Below, one piece after another: positions 3,400 through 38,766 of a stretch of DNA of 52,895 bases. The first letter of the stretch is position 1. Each line of letters opens with the position of its first letter. Made by a program: the position numbers and the translations under genes. The notes beneath the pieces were generated by a model, which saw only the letters and a program-made list of their open reading frames with translations, had not been told where the DNA came from and ran no database searches. Origin of the DNA: Actinomycetes bacterium (GTDB lineage Bacteria; Actinomycetota; Actinomycetes; DATJPE01); contig DATJPE010000035.1 of the NCBI GenBank assembly GCA_035506535.1, positions 1 through 52,895 on the forward strand. The letters run 5' to 3'.

Positions 3400-5834
3400 G
3401 CAGCGACCTGCCCCAGCGGGCCCGCATCGTCGTCGTTGGCGGCGGTGTGGGCGGAGCGAGCATCGCCTACCACCTCGCCCAGCGCGGGGAGACCGACGTC
3501 CTCGTGCTCGAGCGCTCCGAGCTCACGTCCGGCTCCACGTTCCACTCCGCGGGCCTCGTGGGCCAGCTGCGCGGCTCTGTCGTGCTGACCCGGATGATGA
3601 TGGACAGCGCCGAGCTCTACCGAAAGCTCGCCGGGGATCCCGACACCGACCCCGGCTGGATCGAGTGCGGCGGGATCCGGCTCGCCTGCAGCCCGGAGCG
3701 CATGGAGGAGCTGGAGCGTCAGGTCGGCTGGGCGGAGTCCTTCGGGCTGCCGCTGCAGCGCATCACCGCCGCCGAGGCCGAGGCCCTCTTCCCCCCGATG
3801 TCCACCGAGCGCGTCCTCGGTGCCACCTACCTCGCGACGGACGGCTACCTTGACCCGTCACGGCTCACCTACGTCCTCGCGGCCGAGGCCCGCCGGGCCG
3901 GCGTACGCATCGCGGAGCGCACGCGACTGCTCGGCATCGACGTCGTCCGCGGTGCCGTTCGGGGGGTGCGCACCGACAGGGGAGACGTGGAGTGCGAGCT
4001 CGTCGTCGATGCAGCCGGGATGTACGCGGCCGAGGTCGCCCGCCTGGTCGGCGTGCGCGTCCCCATCGTCCCGATGAGTCATCAGTACGTCGTCACGATG
4101 CCCTTCCGCGACCTGGAGCCGGGCGCACCGCGTCTCCCGACCCTGCGCGACCCTGACCTATTGGTGTACTTCCGTGAGGAGGGCGCCGGGCTGGTCATGG
4201 GCGGCTACGAGCGCGACCCCAGCCCGTTCGCCCTCGGCTCCGACGGCTTCGACGCGGTGCCGGCCGACTTCAACGGCCGGCTGCTCGCCGAAGACTGGCC
4301 TCGGCTGGAGGAGATCACCACGAACTCGGTGGTGCGGGTGCCGGCGATGGCCGACGTCGAGCTGCGTCAGGTCGTCAACGGCCCGGAGGGGTTCACCCCC
4401 GACAACGAGTTCTGTCTCGGGCCGAGCGAGGTGACGGGCTTCTGGGTCGCGGCCGGCTTCTGCGCCCATGGCATCGCCGGCGCCGGCGGGATGGGCAAGG
4501 TCATGGCCGACTGGCTGGTCGACGGCGACCCGGGGATGGATCTCTGGGAGATGGACGTGCGCCGCTTCGGGGCGCACTACGGCTCGCCGACGTACACGCT
4601 GGCCCGCGTCCTGGAGAACTACTCGACCTACTACGACATCCGCTACCCGGGTCAGGAACGTACCTCCGGACGGCCCCTTCGGATGTCCCCCGCCTATCCG
4701 TGGCACGAGGCGCACGGCGCGGTCTTCGGCGAGAAGGGCGGCTGGGAGCGGGTCAACTACTACGCCCCCCACGAGCGTCTCGGGGACGCCGGGCGCCGAC
4801 CGCTGGGCTGGGCCGGTCACCTGTGGTCGCCGGCGATCGAGGCGGAGCATCGGGCGACTCGCGAGCACGTGGGGCTGTTCGACGAGACGTCGTTCGCGAA
4901 GATCGAGGTGTCCGGTCCGGACGCCGCGACGCTGCTCGAACGACTCTGCGATAACCGGGTGGCGGGCGCGGTCGGCCGTGTGACGTACACGCAGATGCTG
5001 AACCGGCGCGGTGGGGTGGAGTGCGACTTCACCGTGGCCCGACTGGGGGAGCAGGTCTTCCACATCGTCACGGGCACCGCCTTCGGCGGCCACGACCTGT
5101 CGTGGATCCGCCGGCACGCAGTCGGGGACGTCACCGTGCGCGACGTCACCTCGGCCTGGGCCTGCTACGGGATCTGGGGCCCGATGGCTCGCGACGTGCT
5201 CCAGCCACTCACTCCCCAGAGCCTGGACAACGAGGCCTTCCCCTACATGTCCGCGCGGCTGACCACGGTCGGGGGTGCGCCGGCGCGACTGCTTCGGGTC
5301 ACCTTCGTCGGCGAGCTCGGCTGGGAGGTGTACGTCCCCATGGAGCACGGCGCCGCGGTCTGGCGGCTGCTCGCCGATGCCACCGACGCGGCCGGCGGCA
5401 TGCCCTGCGGCTATAAGGCCATCGACTCGTTGCGCGCCGAGAAGGGGTACCGGTACTGGGGCAGCGACGTGACCGGCGACGAGACGCCGTACGAGGCCGG
5501 ACTCGGCTTCTGCGTGCGCGCCGACAAGTCCTTCGTGGGCTCCGACACCCTCGACCCGGAGCCGTTGCGGCGATTGGTCTGCTTGACCCTCGACGACCCG
5601 CAGCGAGCCGTCCTCGGCAACGAGCCGGTCCGTGTCGAGGGGCGCACTGTTGGGAGGGTCACCAGCGGAGCCATCGGCCATACCGTGGACGCCTCGATCG
5701 CCTTCGCCTATCTCCCTCGGTCCGCGACCGTCCCCGGCACCCGCACCGAGGTGCTGGTGTTCGGCGAGTGGGTCGGCGCGACGGTGCGCCAGGAGCCCTT
5801 GTACGACCCGTCCGGCGAGAGGGTTCGCTCATGA
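3396..5834 (+). CDS. FAD-dependent amine oxidoreductase fused to GcvT folate domain (sarcosine/dimethylglycine dehydrogenase type)
   Basis: This 812-residue fusion begins with a DAO-type FAD domain: GGGVGGAS at 15-22 binds the dinucleotide, and SGSTFHSAG contains His50, which aligns with the His that carries covalent FAD in mammalian dimethylglycine dehydrogenase. A linker domain follows at roughly 375-430. An aminomethyltransferase (GcvT) domain starts near 470, with ECDFTV and GELGWEVYVP, and a GcvT C-terminal barrel lies near 710-800. Such enzymes oxidise secondary or tertiary N-methyl amines and pass the one-carbon unit to tetrahydrofolate. The gene overlaps the kinase gene by ATGA. Next to a glutamine-synthetase-like ligase it may oxidise a gamma-glutamyl amine, as PuuB does, but PuuB has no folate domain. 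The substrate is unproven. Confidence 0.88.
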   Translation: MSSDLPQRARIVVVGGGVGGASIAYHLAQRGETDVLVLERSELTSGSTFHSAGLVGQLRGSVVLTRMMMDSAELYRKLAGDPDTDPGWIECGGIRLACSPERMEELERQVGWAESFGLPLQRITAAEAEALFPPMSTERVLGATYLATDGYLDPSRLTYVLAAEARRAGVRIAERTRLLGIDVVRGAVRGVRTDRGDVECELVVDAAGMYAAEVARLVGVRVPIVPMSHQYVVTMPFRDLEPGAPRLPTLRDPDLLVYFREEGAGLVMGGYERDPSPFALGSDGFDAVPADFNGRLLAEDWPRLEEITTNSVVRVPAMADVELRQVVNGPEGFTPDNEFCLGPSEVTGFWVAAGFCAHGIAGAGGMGKVMADWLVDGDPGMDLWEMDVRRFGAHYGSPTYTLARVLENYSTYYDIRYPGQERTSGRPLRMSPAYPWHEAHGAVFGEKGGWERVNYYAPHERLGDAGRRPLGWAGHLWSPAIEAEHRATREHVGLFDETSFAKIEVSGPDAATLLERLCDNRVAGAVGRVTYTQMLNRRGGVECDFTVARLGEQVFHIVTGTAFGGHDLSWIRRHAVGDVTVRDVTSAWACYGIWGPMARDVLQPLTPQSLDNEAFPYMSARLTTVGGAPARLLRVTFVGELGWEVYVPMEHGAAVWRLLADATDAAGGMPCGYKAIDSLRAEKGYRYWGSDVTGDETPYEAGLGFCVRADKSFVGSDTLDPEPLRRLVCLTLDDPQRAVLGNEPVRVEGRTVGRVTSGAIGHTVDASIAFAYLPRSATVPGTRTEVLVFGEWVGATVRQEPLYDPSGERVRS

Positions 5835-29578: not shown

Positions 29579-29752
29579 GTGGCCGTCCCGAAGAGGAAGA
29601 CCTCGCGCAGCAACACCCGCTCGCGACGTGCGCAGTGGAAGGCCGCCCCGCTGACCCTCACCGCCTGCGACCGGTGCCGCCAGCCCAAGCTGCCCCACCG
29701 CGCCTGCGCGAACTGCGGTACCTACGACAAGCGGCAGATCCTCAGCGTCTGA
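29579..29752 (+). CDS. rpmF: 50S ribosomal protein L32
   Basis: This 57-residue ribosomal protein begins [21 protein letters not shown] and has the zinc-ribbon pairs CDRC and CANC, so it is the zinc-containing form. It starts with GTG, 3 bases after the DUF177 stop, in the conserved pairing. The stop codon lies at the junction of a 14-bp tandem duplication. Confidence 0.95.
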
Positions 29753-29764
29753 TCCTCAGCGTCT
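29737..29764 (+). repeat. 14-bp tandem duplication at the rpmF stop
   Basis: GATCCTCAGCGTCT occurs twice with no spacer. The stop TGA straddles the junction. Confidence 0.9.
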
Positions 29765-29773
29765 CATCTTCAT

Positions 29774-30567: not shown

Positions 30568-31455
30568 GTGCCCGAGCTCCCCGAGGTCGAGGTCGTGCGT
30601 CGCGGCCTCGACCGCTGGGTCACCGGCCGGACCATCCGGCACGTCGAGGTCCTGCACCCACGAGCCGTACGCCGCCACGTGGCGGGCGCCCCAGACCTCG
30701 TCGCGCGCCTGGAGGGCCGCCGCGTCCTGGGTGCGTCGCGACGGGGCAAGTACCTCTGGTTGCCGCTCGCCGAGCGGCCCCCCGCTGCTCCCGCAGAGGC
30801 GCTGGTGGCCCACCTCGGCATGAGCGGCCAGCTGCTGGTCGAGCCACCCGAGGCGCGACCGGAGGCTCACCTGCGCGTGTGTGTCGACTTCACCGACGGC
30901 GGGCCGCAGCTGCGCTTCGTCGACCAGCGGACCTTCGGCGGGCTCGCCCTCCAGGCACTCGTCGACGACGGGAACGGCGGCCGGGTCCCGGCCGGGGTCG
31001 TCCACATCGCGCGTGACCCGCTCGACCCGGCGTTCGACGACGACGCCTTCGTCGCTGCGCTTCGCGCCCGGCGGACGGGGCTCAAGCGCGCCCTGCTCGA
31101 CCAGGGCCTCGTCTCCGGCGTCGGGAACATCTACGCCGACGAGGCGCTCTGGCGCGCCCGCCTGAATGGCACCCGCGCGACGGCCTCGTTGCGTCCCACC
31201 GAGGTGCGCCGGCTGCTCGCCGCGGTCCGGGAGGTGATGACCGAGGCGCTCGCGCAGGGCGGGACCTCCTTCGACTCCCTCTACGTCAACGTCAACGGGG
31301 AGAGCGGGTGGTTCGACCGCTCCCTGGCGGTGTACGGGCGCCGCGACCAGCCCTGCCCGCGCTGCGGCACTCCGGTGCGCCGGCAGGCGTTCATGAACCG
31401 CTCCTCGTACTGGTGCCCGACCTGCCAACCGCGCCCCCGCCACCCTCATCCGTGA
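30568..31455 (+). CDS. mutM: Formamidopyrimidine-DNA glycosylase
   Basis: This 295-residue glycosylase/lyase removes 8-oxoguanine and other oxidised purines. (M)[13 protein letters not shown] gives Pro2 and Glu3 as the catalytic residues, with GKYLWLPL as a conserved Lys strand. [15 protein letters not shown] is the helix-two-turn-helix, and [10 protein letters not shown] plus CPTCQ form the zinc finger. The start is GTG. It is the last of the rnc-mutM pair. Confidence 0.97.
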
Positions 31456-31648
31456 GGTCCCCCGCGACACACCCGTTCGGGGGATCCGGCGGTTGACCAC
31501 CTGCCGTCCCGAATGTCACTCTGAGGTCACGGCCGTCGCAGCACGCCCAGATCGACGCTGCTCGGCCGGGCGGCGGCCCGCCCGCCCAGCATCTCGACAC
31601 CTGTCCGCATCGGCGCACGCCCTGACCCCTCGTCCTGGAGGCCCTTCA

Positions 31649-31849
31649 ATGGCGAAGGCCCTGTTCGGCCACCTCGGCCCTGCCAACTCCTCTGCGGTCG
31701 AGCTGGCGCTGTTGCGCCGGCGAGTACGCGAGCTCGAGGACGAGGTGGCGAGGCTGAGCGCTGCGAACAGCGCTCTCACGAGCCTGATCACCGAGGAGCA
31801 TCTCGACCTCGACGCCGCGCACGACGTCCGTGTCGGCGCCCCCGCCTGA
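31649..31849 (+). CDS. Small coiled-coil protein (66 residues)
   Basis: This short protein begins MAKALFGHLGPANSS and then forms one amphipathic coiled coil (LRRRVRELEDEVARLSAANSAL), a leucine-zipper-like helix. Similar small proteins of unknown role occur in many actinobacteria. CTGGAGG lies 8-9 bases before the ATG. The 193 bases between mutM and this gene hold only a GC hairpin (GGGCGG-CGGC-CCGCCC at 31568-31583). Confidence 0.7.
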   Translation: MAKALFGHLGPANSSAVELALLRRRVRELEDEVARLSAANSALTSLITEEHLDLDAAHDVRVGAPA

Positions 31850-31911
31850 CCCTCCGCACCACCCGCCCCACCGACCTCGGCGCCTGCTCGCCGGGTCGCC
31901 GTAGCGGCCAT

Positions 31912-32000
31912 CTGGCGCTTCCCTCCGGGGAGCGCGAGCCACCGGGCGCCCCCCTCCGGGGAGCGCGAGCCACCGGGCGCCCCCCTCCGGGGAGCGCCGT
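31912..32000. repeat. 31-bp tandem hairpin repeats upstream of smc
   Basis: About 2.8 copies of a 31-bp unit (CCTCCGGGGAGCGCGAGCC followed by ACCGGGCGCCCC). Each copy can fold as GCGCnnCCC-TCC-GGGGAGCGC (stems at 31915-31935, 31946-31966, 31977-31997). The first stem is fully paired with one G-U; the others have one mismatch. The array lies between a small gene and smc, just before the likely smc promoter (TAGGCT at 32030-32035). Confidence 0.85.
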
Positions 32001-32080
32001 GTCGCGTCGGGCACCTCCCGCGGGCCGCGTAGGCTCGGCTGTCGGCTTCCCCGCCACGCTCGGCCCAGGAGAACCGCTCC

Positions 32081-35000
32081 GTGCATCTGAAGAGCCTCAC
32101 CCTGCGGGGCTTCAAGTCCTTCGCGGCCTCGACGACTCTTCGCTTCGAGCCCGGCATCACCTGCGTCGTCGGGCCGAACGGCTCCGGCAAGTCCAACGTC
32201 GTCGACGCGCTCTCCTGGGTGCTCGGCGAGCAGGGCGCCAAGACGCTGCGCGGCGCCAAGATGGAGGACGTCATCTTCGCCGGCACCTCCGGGCGTGCCC
32301 CCCTGGGCCGAGCCGAGGTGCTGGTCACCATCGACAACTCCGACGGGGCCCTGCCCATCGACTACTCCGAGGTCACGATCTCGCGGATCATGTTCCGCGG
32401 CGGCGGCTCGGAGTACGCCATCAACGGCGAGGCCTGCCGGCTGCTGGACGTCCAGGAGCTGCTGTCCGACTCGGGCATCGGCCGGGAGATGCACGTCATC
32501 GTCGGACAGGGCCAGCTGGACGCCGTCCTGACCGCCACGCCGGAGGAGCGCCGGGGCTTCATCGAGGAGGCGGCCGGGGTCCTCAAGCATCGCAAGCGCA
32601 AGGAGAAAGCGCTGCGCAAGCTCGAGGCGATGAGCGCGAACCTCACCCGGCTGCAGGACCTGACGGCCGAGCTGCGTCGCCAGCTCAAACCCTTGGGCCG
32701 GCAGGTGGAGGTGGCGCGCCGCGCTGCGGTGATCCAGGCGGACGTGCGGGACGCGCGGTTGCGCCTCCTCGCCGACGACCTCCTCGCCATGACTCGTTCG
32801 CTCGAAGCGGAGATCGCTGACGAGACGGCCCTTCGCGAGCGCCGCCAGGCGGTCGAGCAGGAACACTCCCGCCTGCGCGAGCGGGAGGCGGCGCTGGAGG
32901 AGGCCGCTCGCTCGGACGTGACGGCGCTAGCCGCCGTGCAGGAGACCTACTTCCGGCTGGCGTCCCTCCGCGAGCGGCTGCACGGCACGGCCGCCCTGGC
33001 GGCCGAGCGCTCCCGCCGACTCGCGGAGGAGCCGGAGCGTGCCGTCGCAGGTGACCCGGACCAGCTGGAGGCGGAGGCCGCCTCCGTCCAGGCCGAGGCG
33101 GGCCGGCTCCGCCAGCGGCTCGAGGCGGACACCGCCCAGCTGATGACCGCCCAAGAGCTGCTGGGCGTCGCCGAGCAGGACCTGCGCGCCGAGGACCAGC
33201 GGCTGGCCGCTCTCCAGCGCGCCGAGGCCGACCGCCGGGAGGGTCTGGCTCGCCTCTCCGGCGACGAGCGCACCGCCCGGGGGCGGGTCGAGACCCGCTC
33301 CGCCGAGATCGAGCGCCTCGGCTCGGCCCTGGCGCAGGCCCGCACCAGGGCCGAGGAGGCGCAGCGGGCGTTCACCGCCCTCGAAACCCAGGTCGCCGGC
33401 ATCGACGAGGGTGAGGTCGATCTCGACGCCGAGCACGGGGCGGCTGCAGCCGAGCTGGCGGCCGCCGACACCGCCCTCGCCGCCGCCCGCACCGAGGCGG
33501 CCGACGCCGAGCGGGAGCGGGCCGCCGCCCAGGCCCGCGCCGAGGCGCTGCGCAGCGCCCTCGCGCCCAAGGACGGCGCCGCGGCGCTCCTGGCGGCCTC
33601 GGCGGAGGTCTCGGGACTGCTCGGCTCCATCGCCGCCCTCGTCTCCGTGGAGCCGGGGTGGGAGACGGCGGTCGCCTCGGCCCTCGGCGGCGCGGCGGAC
33701 GCCGTCGCCGTCCGTGACCTGCCCTCCGCGGTGGCGGCGCTCAGCGTGCTCCGGGAGCGCGACCAGGGGCGGGCGACCCTGCTCGTGGCTGCACTCGACG
33801 AGACCTCCCCGGAGCCGGTCGTCGCGGGTGGCCCGCGTCCGGTTCTCTCCGCGGTGCAGGCGCCGGCGACGCTGCGCCCCGCCCTGGCCCGGCTGCTCGA
33901 GGGCATCGTCCTCGTGGCCGACCTCCCAGCCGCCGAGGACCTGCTCCGGCGCCACCCTGACCTCACCGCGGTCACGCGTGAGGGCGACTTCGTGGGTCGA
34001 CACACCGCTCGCGGCGGCTCGGCGGCGGCCCCCTCGCTGCTGGAGCTGCAGGCGGCGGTCGAGGAGGCCACCGCCGCCTTCGCCGCCGCCGGCCACCGGC
34101 TCGAGCGCGCCCGCTTCGAGCTGGCCCGGGCCGAGGACCGCCAGCGAGCGGCCGCCGACCGCGTGGAGGCGGCCCTCGAGCGCCTCCACGAGTCCGACGC
34201 CCGCCTGGCCGCGGTCGAGGAGCAGCTGGCCCACCTCGGGGCGACGGCGCGGGCAGCCGGCGGGGAGGCGGAGCGCCTCGTCGTCGCCCTCGCCGCCGCT
34301 GAACAGGCGCGGGCAGAGGACCAGCGACGACTCGACGAGCTGACCTCCCGGCTCGCCGCGGCCTCGGCCGAGCCGGTGGCCGGCGAGGAGATCGACCTGC
34401 GCCCGTCCCTGGTCGACCGGGTCGCCGACGCGCGGCAGACCGAGCTCGACGCCCGGCTGGCGGTCCGGACCGGCGAGGAGCGGGTGCGGGCGCTCGGCGA
34501 GCGCGCGGAGGCGCTTCGGTCGGCCGCCGTGGCCGCCCGCGAGGAGCAGGCCCGCGCAGCGGCGCGTCGGGAACGAGCCAAGGTCCAGGGGCAGGTCGCC
34601 GCGGCGGTCGCCGCCGGGGCTCGAGTCGCCCTCGGCGCCCTCGAGGGTTCGCTCACGCGCGCAGCGAGCGAGCGGGGCGCTGTCGAGCGCGACGGCGCGG
34701 CGCACGCCGAGGAGCTGCGCGAAGCCCGTACCCGGCTTCGTGAACTGGCCGAGGAGCTGGAGCGACTCACTGACTCCGTCCACGCCGACGAGGTCGCTCG
34801 GGCCGAGCAGCGGCTGCGGATCGAGGTGCTGCAGACCCGGGCCGTGGAGGAGCTGGGGGTCGACCCCGAGACCCTGGTCGCCGAGTACGGCCCCGACCAG
34901 CCGGTCCCCGTCACCGAAGCCCAGACCGGTGACGGCACCGAGGAATCGCGGACCGAGGAGCCGGTCGTGGCGAAGACCCGGCCGTACGTCCGCGCGGAGC

Positions 35001-35650
35001 AGGAGAAGCGCCTGCGCACCGCCGAGCGCGAGCTGGCCGTCCTCGGCAAGGTGAACCCGCTGGCCCTGGAGGAGTACGCCGCGCTCGAGGAGCGGCACGT
35101 GTTCCTCACCGAGCAGCTCGAGGACCTGCGCAAGACCAGGCGGGACCTGCTCGACATCATCCGCGAGGTCGACGAGCGGGTCGAGGCGGTCTTCGCCGCC
35201 GCCTGGGAGGACACCGCGCGCGAGTTCGAGCAGGTCTTCGCCCGCCTCTTCCCGGGCGGGGAGGGCCGCCTGGTGCTGACCGACCCCTCGGACCTGCTGA
35301 CGACCGGTATCGAGGTGGAGGCCCGCCCGCCCGGCAAGAAGGTCAAGCGGCTGTCGTTGCTGTCCGGCGGCGAGCGGTCTCTGACCGCCGTCGCCCTGCT
35401 CGTCGCGATCTTCAAGGCCAGGCCCAGCCCCTTCTACGTCATGGACGAGGTCGAGGCAGCCCTGGACGACACCAACCTGGGGCGGCTCATCACCTTGCTC
35501 GAGGAGCTGCGCGAGTCCTCCCAGCTCATCGTGGTCACCCACCAGAAGCGGACGATGGAGATCGCCGACGCGCTCTACGGCGTGACGATGAAGGGCGACG
35601 GGGTCACCGAGGTGATCAGCCACAGGCTCCGGGAACCGGAGCTCGTGTGA
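32081..35650 (+). CDS. smc: Chromosome segregation ATPase Smc
   Basis: This 1189-residue SMC protein organises and segregates the chromosome with ScpA/B. The N-terminal head has Walker A GPNGSGKSN (31-39). Coiled coils (about 160-500 and 670-1020) flank the hinge at about 500-660. The C-terminal head has LSGGERS (from 1094) and Walker B FYVMDEVEAALDD (from 1118). AGGAGA precedes the GTG at 32081. The last residues (RLREPELV) are encoded inside the first copy of a 29-bp repeat, so the C-terminus has been shaped by that array. Confidence 0.98.
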   Translation: MHLKSLTLRGFKSFAASTTLRFEPGITCVVGPNGSGKSNVVDALSWVLGEQGAKTLRGAKMEDVIFAGTSGRAPLGRAEVLVTIDNSDGALPIDYSEVTISRIMFRGGGSEYAINGEACRLLDVQELLSDSGIGREMHVIVGQGQLDAVLTATPEERRGFIEEAAGVLKHRKRKEKALRKLEAMSANLTRLQDLTAELRRQLKPLGRQVEVARRAAVIQADVRDARLRLLADDLLAMTRSLEAEIADETALRERRQAVEQEHSRLREREAALEEAARSDVTALAAVQETYFRLASLRERLHGTAALAAERSRRLAEEPERAVAGDPDQLEAEAASVQAEAGRLRQRLEADTAQLMTAQELLGVAEQDLRAEDQRLAALQRAEADRREGLARLSGDERTARGRVETRSAEIERLGSALAQARTRAEEAQRAFTALETQVAGIDEGEVDLDAEHGAAAAELAAADTALAAARTEAADAERERAAAQARAEALRSALAPKDGAAALLAASAEVSGLLGSIAALVSVEPGWETAVASALGGAADAVAVRDLPSAVAALSVLRERDQGRATLLVAALDETSPEPVVAGGPRPVLSAVQAPATLRPALARLLEGIVLVADLPAAEDLLRRHPDLTAVTREGDFVGRHTARGGSAAAPSLLELQAAVEEATAAFAAAGHRLERARFELARAEDRQRAAADRVEAALERLHESDARLAAVEEQLAHLGATARAAGGEAERLVVALAAAEQARAEDQRRLDELTSRLAAASAEPVAGEEIDLRPSLVDRVADARQTELDARLAVRTGEERVRALGERAEALRSAAVAAREEQARAAARRERAKVQGQVAAAVAAGARVALGALEGSLTRAASERGAVERDGAAHAEELREARTRLRELAEELERLTDSVHADEVARAEQRLRIEVLQTRAVEELGVDPETLVAEYGPDQPVPVTEAQTGDGTEESRTEEPVVAKTRPYVRAEQEKRLRTAERELAVLGKVNPLALEEYAALEERHVFLTEQLEDLRKTRRDLLDIIREVDERVEAVFAAAWEDTAREFEQVFARLFPGGEGRLVLTDPSDLLTTGIEVEARPPGKKVKRLSLLSGGERSLTAVALLVAIFKARPSPFYVMDEVEAALDDTNLGRLITLLEELRESSQLIVVTHQKRTMEIADALYGVTMKGDGVTEVISHRLREPELV

Positions 35651-35731
35651 GCAGGCTCCGGGAACCGGAGCTCGTGTGAGCAGGCTCCGGGAACCGGAGC
35701 TCGTGTGAGCAGGCTGCGGGAACCGCAGCTC
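35624..35731. repeat. 29-bp tandem hairpin repeats at the smc 3' end
   Basis: Four units with exactly 29-bp spacing start at 35624, 35653, 35682 and 35711. The core is GCTCCGG-GAA-CCGGAGC, a 7-bp stem with a GAA loop, followed by TCGTGTGAGC. The fourth unit reads GCTGCGG-GAA-CCGCAGC: both arms changed so that pairing is kept. The first unit encodes the smc C-terminus and stop codon. Confidence 0.92.
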
Positions 35732-35801
35732 CGGTAGCCGACCCTGGCTCGTCGCCGGCCGGCGGGCGCGGCGGTCGCCTCGGTCCTGAGAGGATCCGCG
35801 C

Positions 35802-36932
35802 GTGGAGTTCGTCGTCATCGCCCTCGTGATCCTCGCCATCCTCGTGCTGCTCGGCATCGGGCTGGTCACCTCGCGACGGCGACGGGAGCTGACGCGTGAG
35901 GCACCGCCCCCGGTGGTCGCACCGCCGGCCGAGCCGCGTGCCCCGGCTGCCGCGACGAGCGCCGGAGGTCTGGCCGAGGCCCCGCCCGCGCCTGTCCTGG
36001 AGGTCCCCGAGGCGCCCGCCAGCCGGCTGGTCCGGCTGCGTGCCCGTCTGGCTCGCTCGGGCTCGTCCCTGGGCCTGGGGCTGCTGACCCTGCTTTCGCG
36101 CGACCATCTCGACCAGGCCACCTGGGACGAGGTCGAGGAGACCCTGCTCCTGTCCGACCTCGGGGTCGGCCCGACGGCCCAGCTCGTGGAGCGGCTGCGC
36201 ACCACGGTTCGTGTGGACGGGGTGAAGGACCCGGCCGAGGTACGGGCGCTGCTTCGTGAGGAGCTGCTCGCGCTCGTGGACCCGTCGATGGACCGCGCCC
36301 TGCACCTCGACCCGCAGGAGTCGGGGCCGGCCGTGGCGCTGGTCGTGGGGGTGAACGGCACGGGCAAGACCACGACGACCGGGAAGCTGGCGAGGCTCCT
36401 GGTCGCCGAGGGCCGCAGCGTCCTGCTCGGCGCGGCCGACACCTTCCGCGCCGCGGCCAGCGAGCAGCTGCAGACCTGGGGCGAGCGCGTCGGGGCCGAG
36501 GTGGTCCGCGGCCCGGAGGGCGGCGACCCGGCGAGCGTCGCCTTCGATGCGGTGCGGACCGCCACCGACGATCACCTCGACGTGGTCATCGTCGATACCG
36601 CTGGGCGCCTGCACACCAAGACCGGTCTCATGGACGAGCTGGGCAAGGTCAAGCGGGTGCTCGAGCGTCAGCGCCCGGTCGCGGAGGTGCTCCTCGTCCT
36701 CGACGCGACCACCGGGCAGAACGGTCTGGTCCAGGCGCGTGTCTTCGCCGAGGTGGTCGACGTGACCGGGGTGGTGCTCACCAAGCTCGACGGCACCGCC
36801 CGGGGCGGGATCGTCGTACAGGTCCAGCGTGACCTCGCGGTGCCTGTGAAGCTCGTCGGACTCGGCGAGGGGCCGGACGACCTGGCCCCCTTCGACGCCG
36901 AGACGTTCGTGGACGCGCTGCTGGGCGGCTGA
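35802..36932 (+). CDS. ftsY: Signal recognition particle receptor FtsY
   Basis: This 376-residue SRP receptor GTPase begins with a transmembrane helix (VVIALVILAILVLLGIGLV), then a Pro/Ala-rich linker (30-75). The N domain (80-165) is followed by the G domain with GVNGTGKTTTTGKLA (from about 184), DTFRAAASEQL, DTAGRLHTK and TKLDGTARGG. GAGGAT lies 6 bases before GTG 35802, which suggests a leaderless transcript. The upstream spacer holds the 29-bp repeats. Confidence 0.97.
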   Translation: MEFVVIALVILAILVLLGIGLVTSRRRRELTREAPPPVVAPPAEPRAPAAATSAGGLAEAPPAPVLEVPEAPASRLVRLRARLARSGSSLGLGLLTLLSRDHLDQATWDEVEETLLLSDLGVGPTAQLVERLRTTVRVDGVKDPAEVRALLREELLALVDPSMDRALHLDPQESGPAVALVVGVNGTGKTTTTGKLARLLVAEGRSVLLGAADTFRAAASEQLQTWGERVGAEVVRGPEGGDPASVAFDAVRTATDDHLDVVIVDTAGRLHTKTGLMDELGKVKRVLERQRPVAEVLLVLDATTGQNGLVQARVFAEVVDVTGVVLTKLDGTARGGIVVQVQRDLAVPVKLVGLGEGPDDLAPFDAETFVDALLGG

Positions 36933-36942
36933 CCGGCCGATC

Positions 36943-37012
36943 GTTCACACGACGTTCACAGAAGTCAGGGCAACGACATCTCCCGGTAACAGCCGACACT
37001 CCGACGGGAAAC
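36943..37012. promoter_or_regulatory. PHO-box-like direct repeat and GlnR-type half-sites before amt
   Basis: GTTCAC occurs at 36943 and 36954, an 11-bp direct repeat typical of a PhoP (PHO) box. GTAAC at 36986 and GAAAC at 37008, 22 bases apart, resemble the GTnAC and GAAAC elements of GlnR boxes. In Streptomyces, PhoP and GlnR both act on the amtB-glnK-glnD promoter. The match here is by eye only. Confidence 0.5.
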
Positions 37013-37069
37013 GCGCCGACGCCAGTCTTCCCCCACGTTCGGGCGAAGGGCCCGTGAGGGGAGACATCG

Positions 37070-38766
<1,697 letters not shown>

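Follow-up and report, generated by a model that had tools for sequence, protein, structure and literature searches.

A tandem array of 29-bp hairpin units across the smc stop codon of an actinobacterial draft genome, probably a lineage-specific minisatellite

The 3′ end of smc in this genome continues into a tandem array of 29-bp units, each of which can fold into a perfect hairpin. The array is probably a lineage-specific minisatellite, VNTR-like and known here from one genome, a reading to which we give a probability of roughly 0.6; most likely it is real, somewhat unusual, and otherwise an ordinary local repeat expansion. This reading is supported by the uniqueness of the unit in its genome, by the absence of the array from 393 other genomes of the class, and by a smc-ftsY gap whose excess over directly adjoining relatives is about three units. 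Furthermore, independent stop-spanning duplications at other smc ends, array-rich noncoding DNA, and a coding hairpin that is not conserved point in the same direction. Two properties are mildly unexpected for a randomly duplicated stretch: its unit has the strongest hairpin tendency among 98 arrays, and it holds the sole compensated stem difference seen, although the array was singled out for its hairpin and compensated change, the very features counted here against chance.

Organization of the array

The window, that is, the whole stretch of 52,895 nucleotides analysed, is one entire contig of a 3.35-Mb draft genome in 102 contigs. TRF reports a tandem repeat at 35623-35731 with period 29, 3.8 copies, 97% matches, no indels, and a score of 204, the top score in the window. 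The features are as follows.

32081-35650, + strand: smc, 1189 aa, C-terminus ...VISHRLREPELV and stop; Pfam SMC_N and SMC_hinge
35623-35651, + strand: unit 1, in which smc ends (codons for RLREPELV, then TGA)
35626-35642, no strand assigned: hairpin of unit 1, GCTCCGG-GAA-CCGGAGC, again at 35655 and 35684
35652-35680, + strand: unit 2, sequence as unit 1
35681-35709, + strand: unit 3, sequence as unit 1
35710-35731, + strand: unit 4, partial (22 of 29 positions), one stem pair swapped from C-G to G-C; CGGTAG comes next
35713-35729: hairpin of unit 4, GCTGCGG-GAA-CCGCAGC
35732-35801, + strand: remainder of the smc-ftsY gap, in which GAGAGGA precedes the GTG of ftsY
35802-36932, + strand: ftsY, downstream of smc; Pfam SRP54 GTPase

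The earlier note, made from the sequence alone, had described four 29-bp units. The array itself is confirmed by TRF, with its start placed at 35623 and with a fourth copy that is partial, giving 3.76 direct head-to-tail copies over 109 bp. Such copies of 10-100 bp are what defines a minisatellite, and here they are 29 bp × 3.76 with 97% matches. The 7-bp stem with a GAA loop that had been noticed in each unit is perfect in every copy, and each copy alone is predicted to fold with seven Watson-Crick pairs plus one G·U around GAA at about -13.8 kcal/mol. Likewise, the first unit does encode the Smc C-terminus: RLREPELV is followed by TGA at 35648-35650, within copy 1. ftsY is probably co-transcribed with smc, and the gap between them is 151 bp, or 64 + 3 × 29.

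An artefact of assembly would also yield such a repeat, and the draft state of the genome, with its 102 contigs and another repeat array lying at a contig end, gives some reason to consider it. A typical 150-base read can, however, span the 109-bp array, which sits well inside the 52.9-kb contig and has a distinct fourth copy, so that an artefact is the least probable of the explanations considered here.

Comparison with relatives

The comparison set comprised 393 other genomes of the class, and the genome of the window is the only one of its genus, family, and order among those available for comparison. The array was not found in these 393 genomes, where the sole match was a 22-bp stretch, nor at any of about 109 inspected smc 3′ ends, nearly all of which are from other orders. 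A plasmid search gave one Nonomuraea match, confined to the smc coding part, and a literature search found no report of a tandem repeat between smc and ftsY in mycobacteria. The Smc of the window is 68% identical to that of Prado026.

In relatives with ftsY directly adjoining, the smc-ftsY gap is mostly about 17-88 bp, and it is 47 bp in G059, which FtsY identity (78%) places among the nearest genomes. Given these shorter gaps and the 151 bp observed here, the simplest history is that three copies were added to a compact operon junction.

Unrelated duplications, made of other units, also span the stop codon at smc 3′ ends of L016 (20-21 bp × 2.7), L040 (20 bp × 2.7), L041, L047, L065, L069 (20 bp × 2), and L131 (21 bp × 2.4). 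Stop-including tandem duplications recur at gene ends of high-GC actinobacteria, one of two cautions that the array illustrates. Prauserella species (L060 and L064) carry 21-bp tandem units (GCGAGTTCCCCGC...) immediately 3′ of the smc stop.

The hairpin within the smc codons was followed in 100 orthologues, none of which keeps all seven pairs; the mean is 2.97 of 7 pairs vs 2.4-3.0 for slid controls. Among the 20 orthologues ending in RLRE the mean is 3.5 pairs vs 1.6-3.2 in controls, again with none complete. A conserved coding hairpin was therefore rejected, its pairing being at control level. The earlier note had proposed selection for the structure and had held that restriction to one strain as a recent duplication, or arms that change independently in relatives, would speak against it. 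This is largely what was found: the array occurs in one genome only, and the arms change independently in smc orthologues (0/100 with 7/7 pairs). In this genome, perfect hairpins of at least 7 bp occur at about 1.7% of gene ends vs 1.5% inside genes, and with equal rates at the two kinds of position the hairpin of unit 1 is a modest coincidence.

Taken as a minisatellite, the array may have begun as a chance hairpin in the RLREPEL codons, which slippage during replication, or unequal exchange, then duplicated. The duplication would have been tolerated because Smc still stops at the first TGA and the ribosome-binding site of ftsY is untouched. Copies 1-3 would be recent or homogenised.

The matched base change in the fourth copy

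The sole difference inside the hairpin between copy 4 and copies 1-3 is a matched swap of C-G to G-C. One base in each arm has changed and pairing is kept (GCTGCGG/CCGCAGC), exactly as had been read from the sequence. Two random substitutions in copy 4 would hit the same pair and leave it matched with a probability of 1.0%, and two independent hits are thus unlikely. The change also stands out among tandem hairpins: of 33 stem differences between copies, 28 are broken, four are G·U, and one is compensated, which is that of copy 4. This survey covered 1.64 Mb with 173 tandem arrays free of indels, of which 24 have a hairpin of at least 6 bp. It is biased towards broken pairs by the choice of the best hairpin per array; many of the arrays are coding.

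There is, however, another route to a matched change. Sequence evidence has led to the proposal that a template switch from one hairpin arm to the other yields compensatory changes and perfect stems in one mutation, and hairpins can be created and maintained in this way (PMC8794818). The second caution is that one matched change in a duplicated hairpin is not proof of selection, since copying between arms can produce it. Most likely, one mutation in copy 4 was copied to the other arm by template switching, or two changes occurred. Both pair states are plain codons: Leu with Glu in CTC..GAG, Leu with Gln in CTG..CAG. Relatives without the array have CTG..CAG (L006, L117, and L126), CTG..GAG (L005), or CTC..GAG (L021). 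As both states occur in such relatives, the change may have gone in either direction. Of the claim of selection for the structure, then, the coordinated change stands, being real and improbable as two hits, while its weight as evidence is reduced by its being a single event of a type that template switching also makes; the matched pair hints at selection for the hairpin but does not prove it.

Folding and possible effects on the smc-ftsY mRNA

The array region folds more stably than dinucleotide shuffles, with a z-score of -4.2 as RNA and -4.8 as DNA, partly because any repeated self-complementary unit does so. For the 29-bp unit itself the z-score is -3.3, the most extreme among 98 tandem arrays (period 15-60) in 655 kb of the genome. 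Rfam gave no matches at the gathering score in the window. A promoter and terminator scan found neither; there is no terminator-like site in 31000-38600 and no T-run at the array, which thus lacks the GC-rich stem followed by a T run of an intrinsic (rho-independent) terminator.

Clusters of hairpins that follow a stop codon may, according to a published proposal, terminate transcription with no U-tract, and two tandem hairpins downstream of gyrA in M. smegmatis were reported to terminate better than one (PMC8355165). The array resembles these clusters in that a stop codon is immediately followed by several short hairpins and no U-tract is present; it differs in its position, which is internal to a probable smc-ftsY operon and not at the end of one, and in not being conserved. 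By analogy, it might act as a functional intercistronic hairpin cluster that causes partial termination after smc, or that forms a stable 3′ end of processed smc mRNA, leading to unequal levels of smc and ftsY. Four stable predicted hairpins right at the stop codon would suit this role, for which tandem-hairpin terminators without a U-tract offer a precedent (PMC8355165), and the compensated change of copy 4 fits conservation of structure. On the other hand, there is no T-run, the array is in one genome only, and relatives with a tight smc-ftsY junction without it (47 bp in G059) indicate that the element is not generally needed. ftsY is normally an essential gene. Strong termination before it would carry a cost if the gene lacked a promoter of its own, and complete termination at the array is improbable should ftsY rely on the promoter of smc. 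Overall a functional cluster is doubtful, yet it is the alternative that we take most seriously.

A more specific proposal is improbable, namely that a coding hairpin at the smc end was multiplied to give an RNA array between the two cistrons, which controls the smc:ftsY ratio and persists because its structure is under selection. Should the array adjust smc relative to ftsY, it would offer a straightforward example of a new RNA element that arose from a coding-sequence end. Under the preferred minisatellite reading, the smc-ftsY mRNA probably still carries folded hairpins to some extent, but these can be explained without a dedicated role, and the effect of the array on this mRNA would be weak or none, mild at most.

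Relation to known repeats and to other arrays in the genome

Mycobacterial MIRU-type arrays consist of short tandem units between genes that overlap start or stop codons. Like these and other minisatellite or VNTR loci, the array has direct tandem units, each tens of bp long, where two genes meet, and the first overlaps the upstream stop. MIRU units are, in contrast, longer and dispersed, with related units at many genomic loci, whereas the smc-end unit is at one locus. Indeed, the genome search that the earlier note had suggested returned the array locus as the sole match, with the 29-bp unit at no other locus of its genome, and a dispersed palindrome family was rejected. REP/BIME elements are intergenic palindromes dispersed in a genome; the array shares with them a palindromic unit and extragenic copies 3′ of a gene, but not the dispersal.

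The units could also be viewed as protein-binding DNA palindromes (GCTCCGGgaaCCGGAGC every 29 bp), serving regulation or chromosome organisation by the neighbouring Smc. They are perfectly palindromic and regularly spaced, and symmetric changes would preserve a dyad-symmetric site. But absence of the unit elsewhere speaks against a family of sites scattered over the genome, the swapped pair of copy 4 changes the very sequence that would be bound, a 29-bp spacing amounts to a non-integer number of helical turns, and unit 1 lies within smc codons. Such binding sites are very improbable, nearly as much so as an assembly artefact.

Array statistics were taken from a 655-kb sample of stretches of this genome with 595 predicted genes, called by a simple codon-usage script and not by a standard gene finder. 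Noncoding DNA is array-rich: 34 of the 116 arrays lie in the about 13% of sequence that is noncoding (87% called coding). Nine arrays span a stop, corresponding to about 1.5% of sampled gene ends, probably a lower bound because the script missed at least one small gene (an ORF ending near 29750). Hairpins in array units are weakly above shuffles, in 8 of 84 arrays of this genome vs 4.1 expected and in 28 of 351 arrays of relatives vs 22.8 expected; with so weak an excess, a genome-wide habit of hairpin arrays was rejected.

A second tandem hairpin array is found in the gap upstream of smc at 31907-31997 (31 bp × 2.9, 3-base loop). Its unit is also unique in the genome. Unrelated hairpin arrays thus stand on both sides of smc, each with a period of about 30 bp. 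Between its copies the stem changes from T-A to C×A and from T·G to C-G, so the arms of that array vary independently. Further upstream, a 14-bp × 2.6 tandem duplication at 29737-29772 crosses the stop of a short ORF (...YDKRQILSV and stop), probably rpmF for ribosomal protein L32, and a GGCGCCC-TAGA-GGGCGCC hairpin comes after it.

There are other cases on other contigs. A 52-bp × 2.9 tandem array (L147:179-330, contig C32) lies near the point where a predicted gene ends; its unit is GC-rich and moderately prone to fold. A different 29-bp hairpin unit (GGCGCCTCAGCCGGCGCC + CGCACCCACCC) occurs in 2.6 copies at L101:117-191 (contig C17) and in 5.6 copies at L154:1-159 (contig C40); its 18-base hairpin is identical in seven of the seven exact copies listed, and the spacer varies. 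The C40 array is at the edge of its contig, and C40 also has a match near 5007-5037 (L160) to the first part of C17, which together make strain variation or a repeat-broken assembly likely at these two loci.
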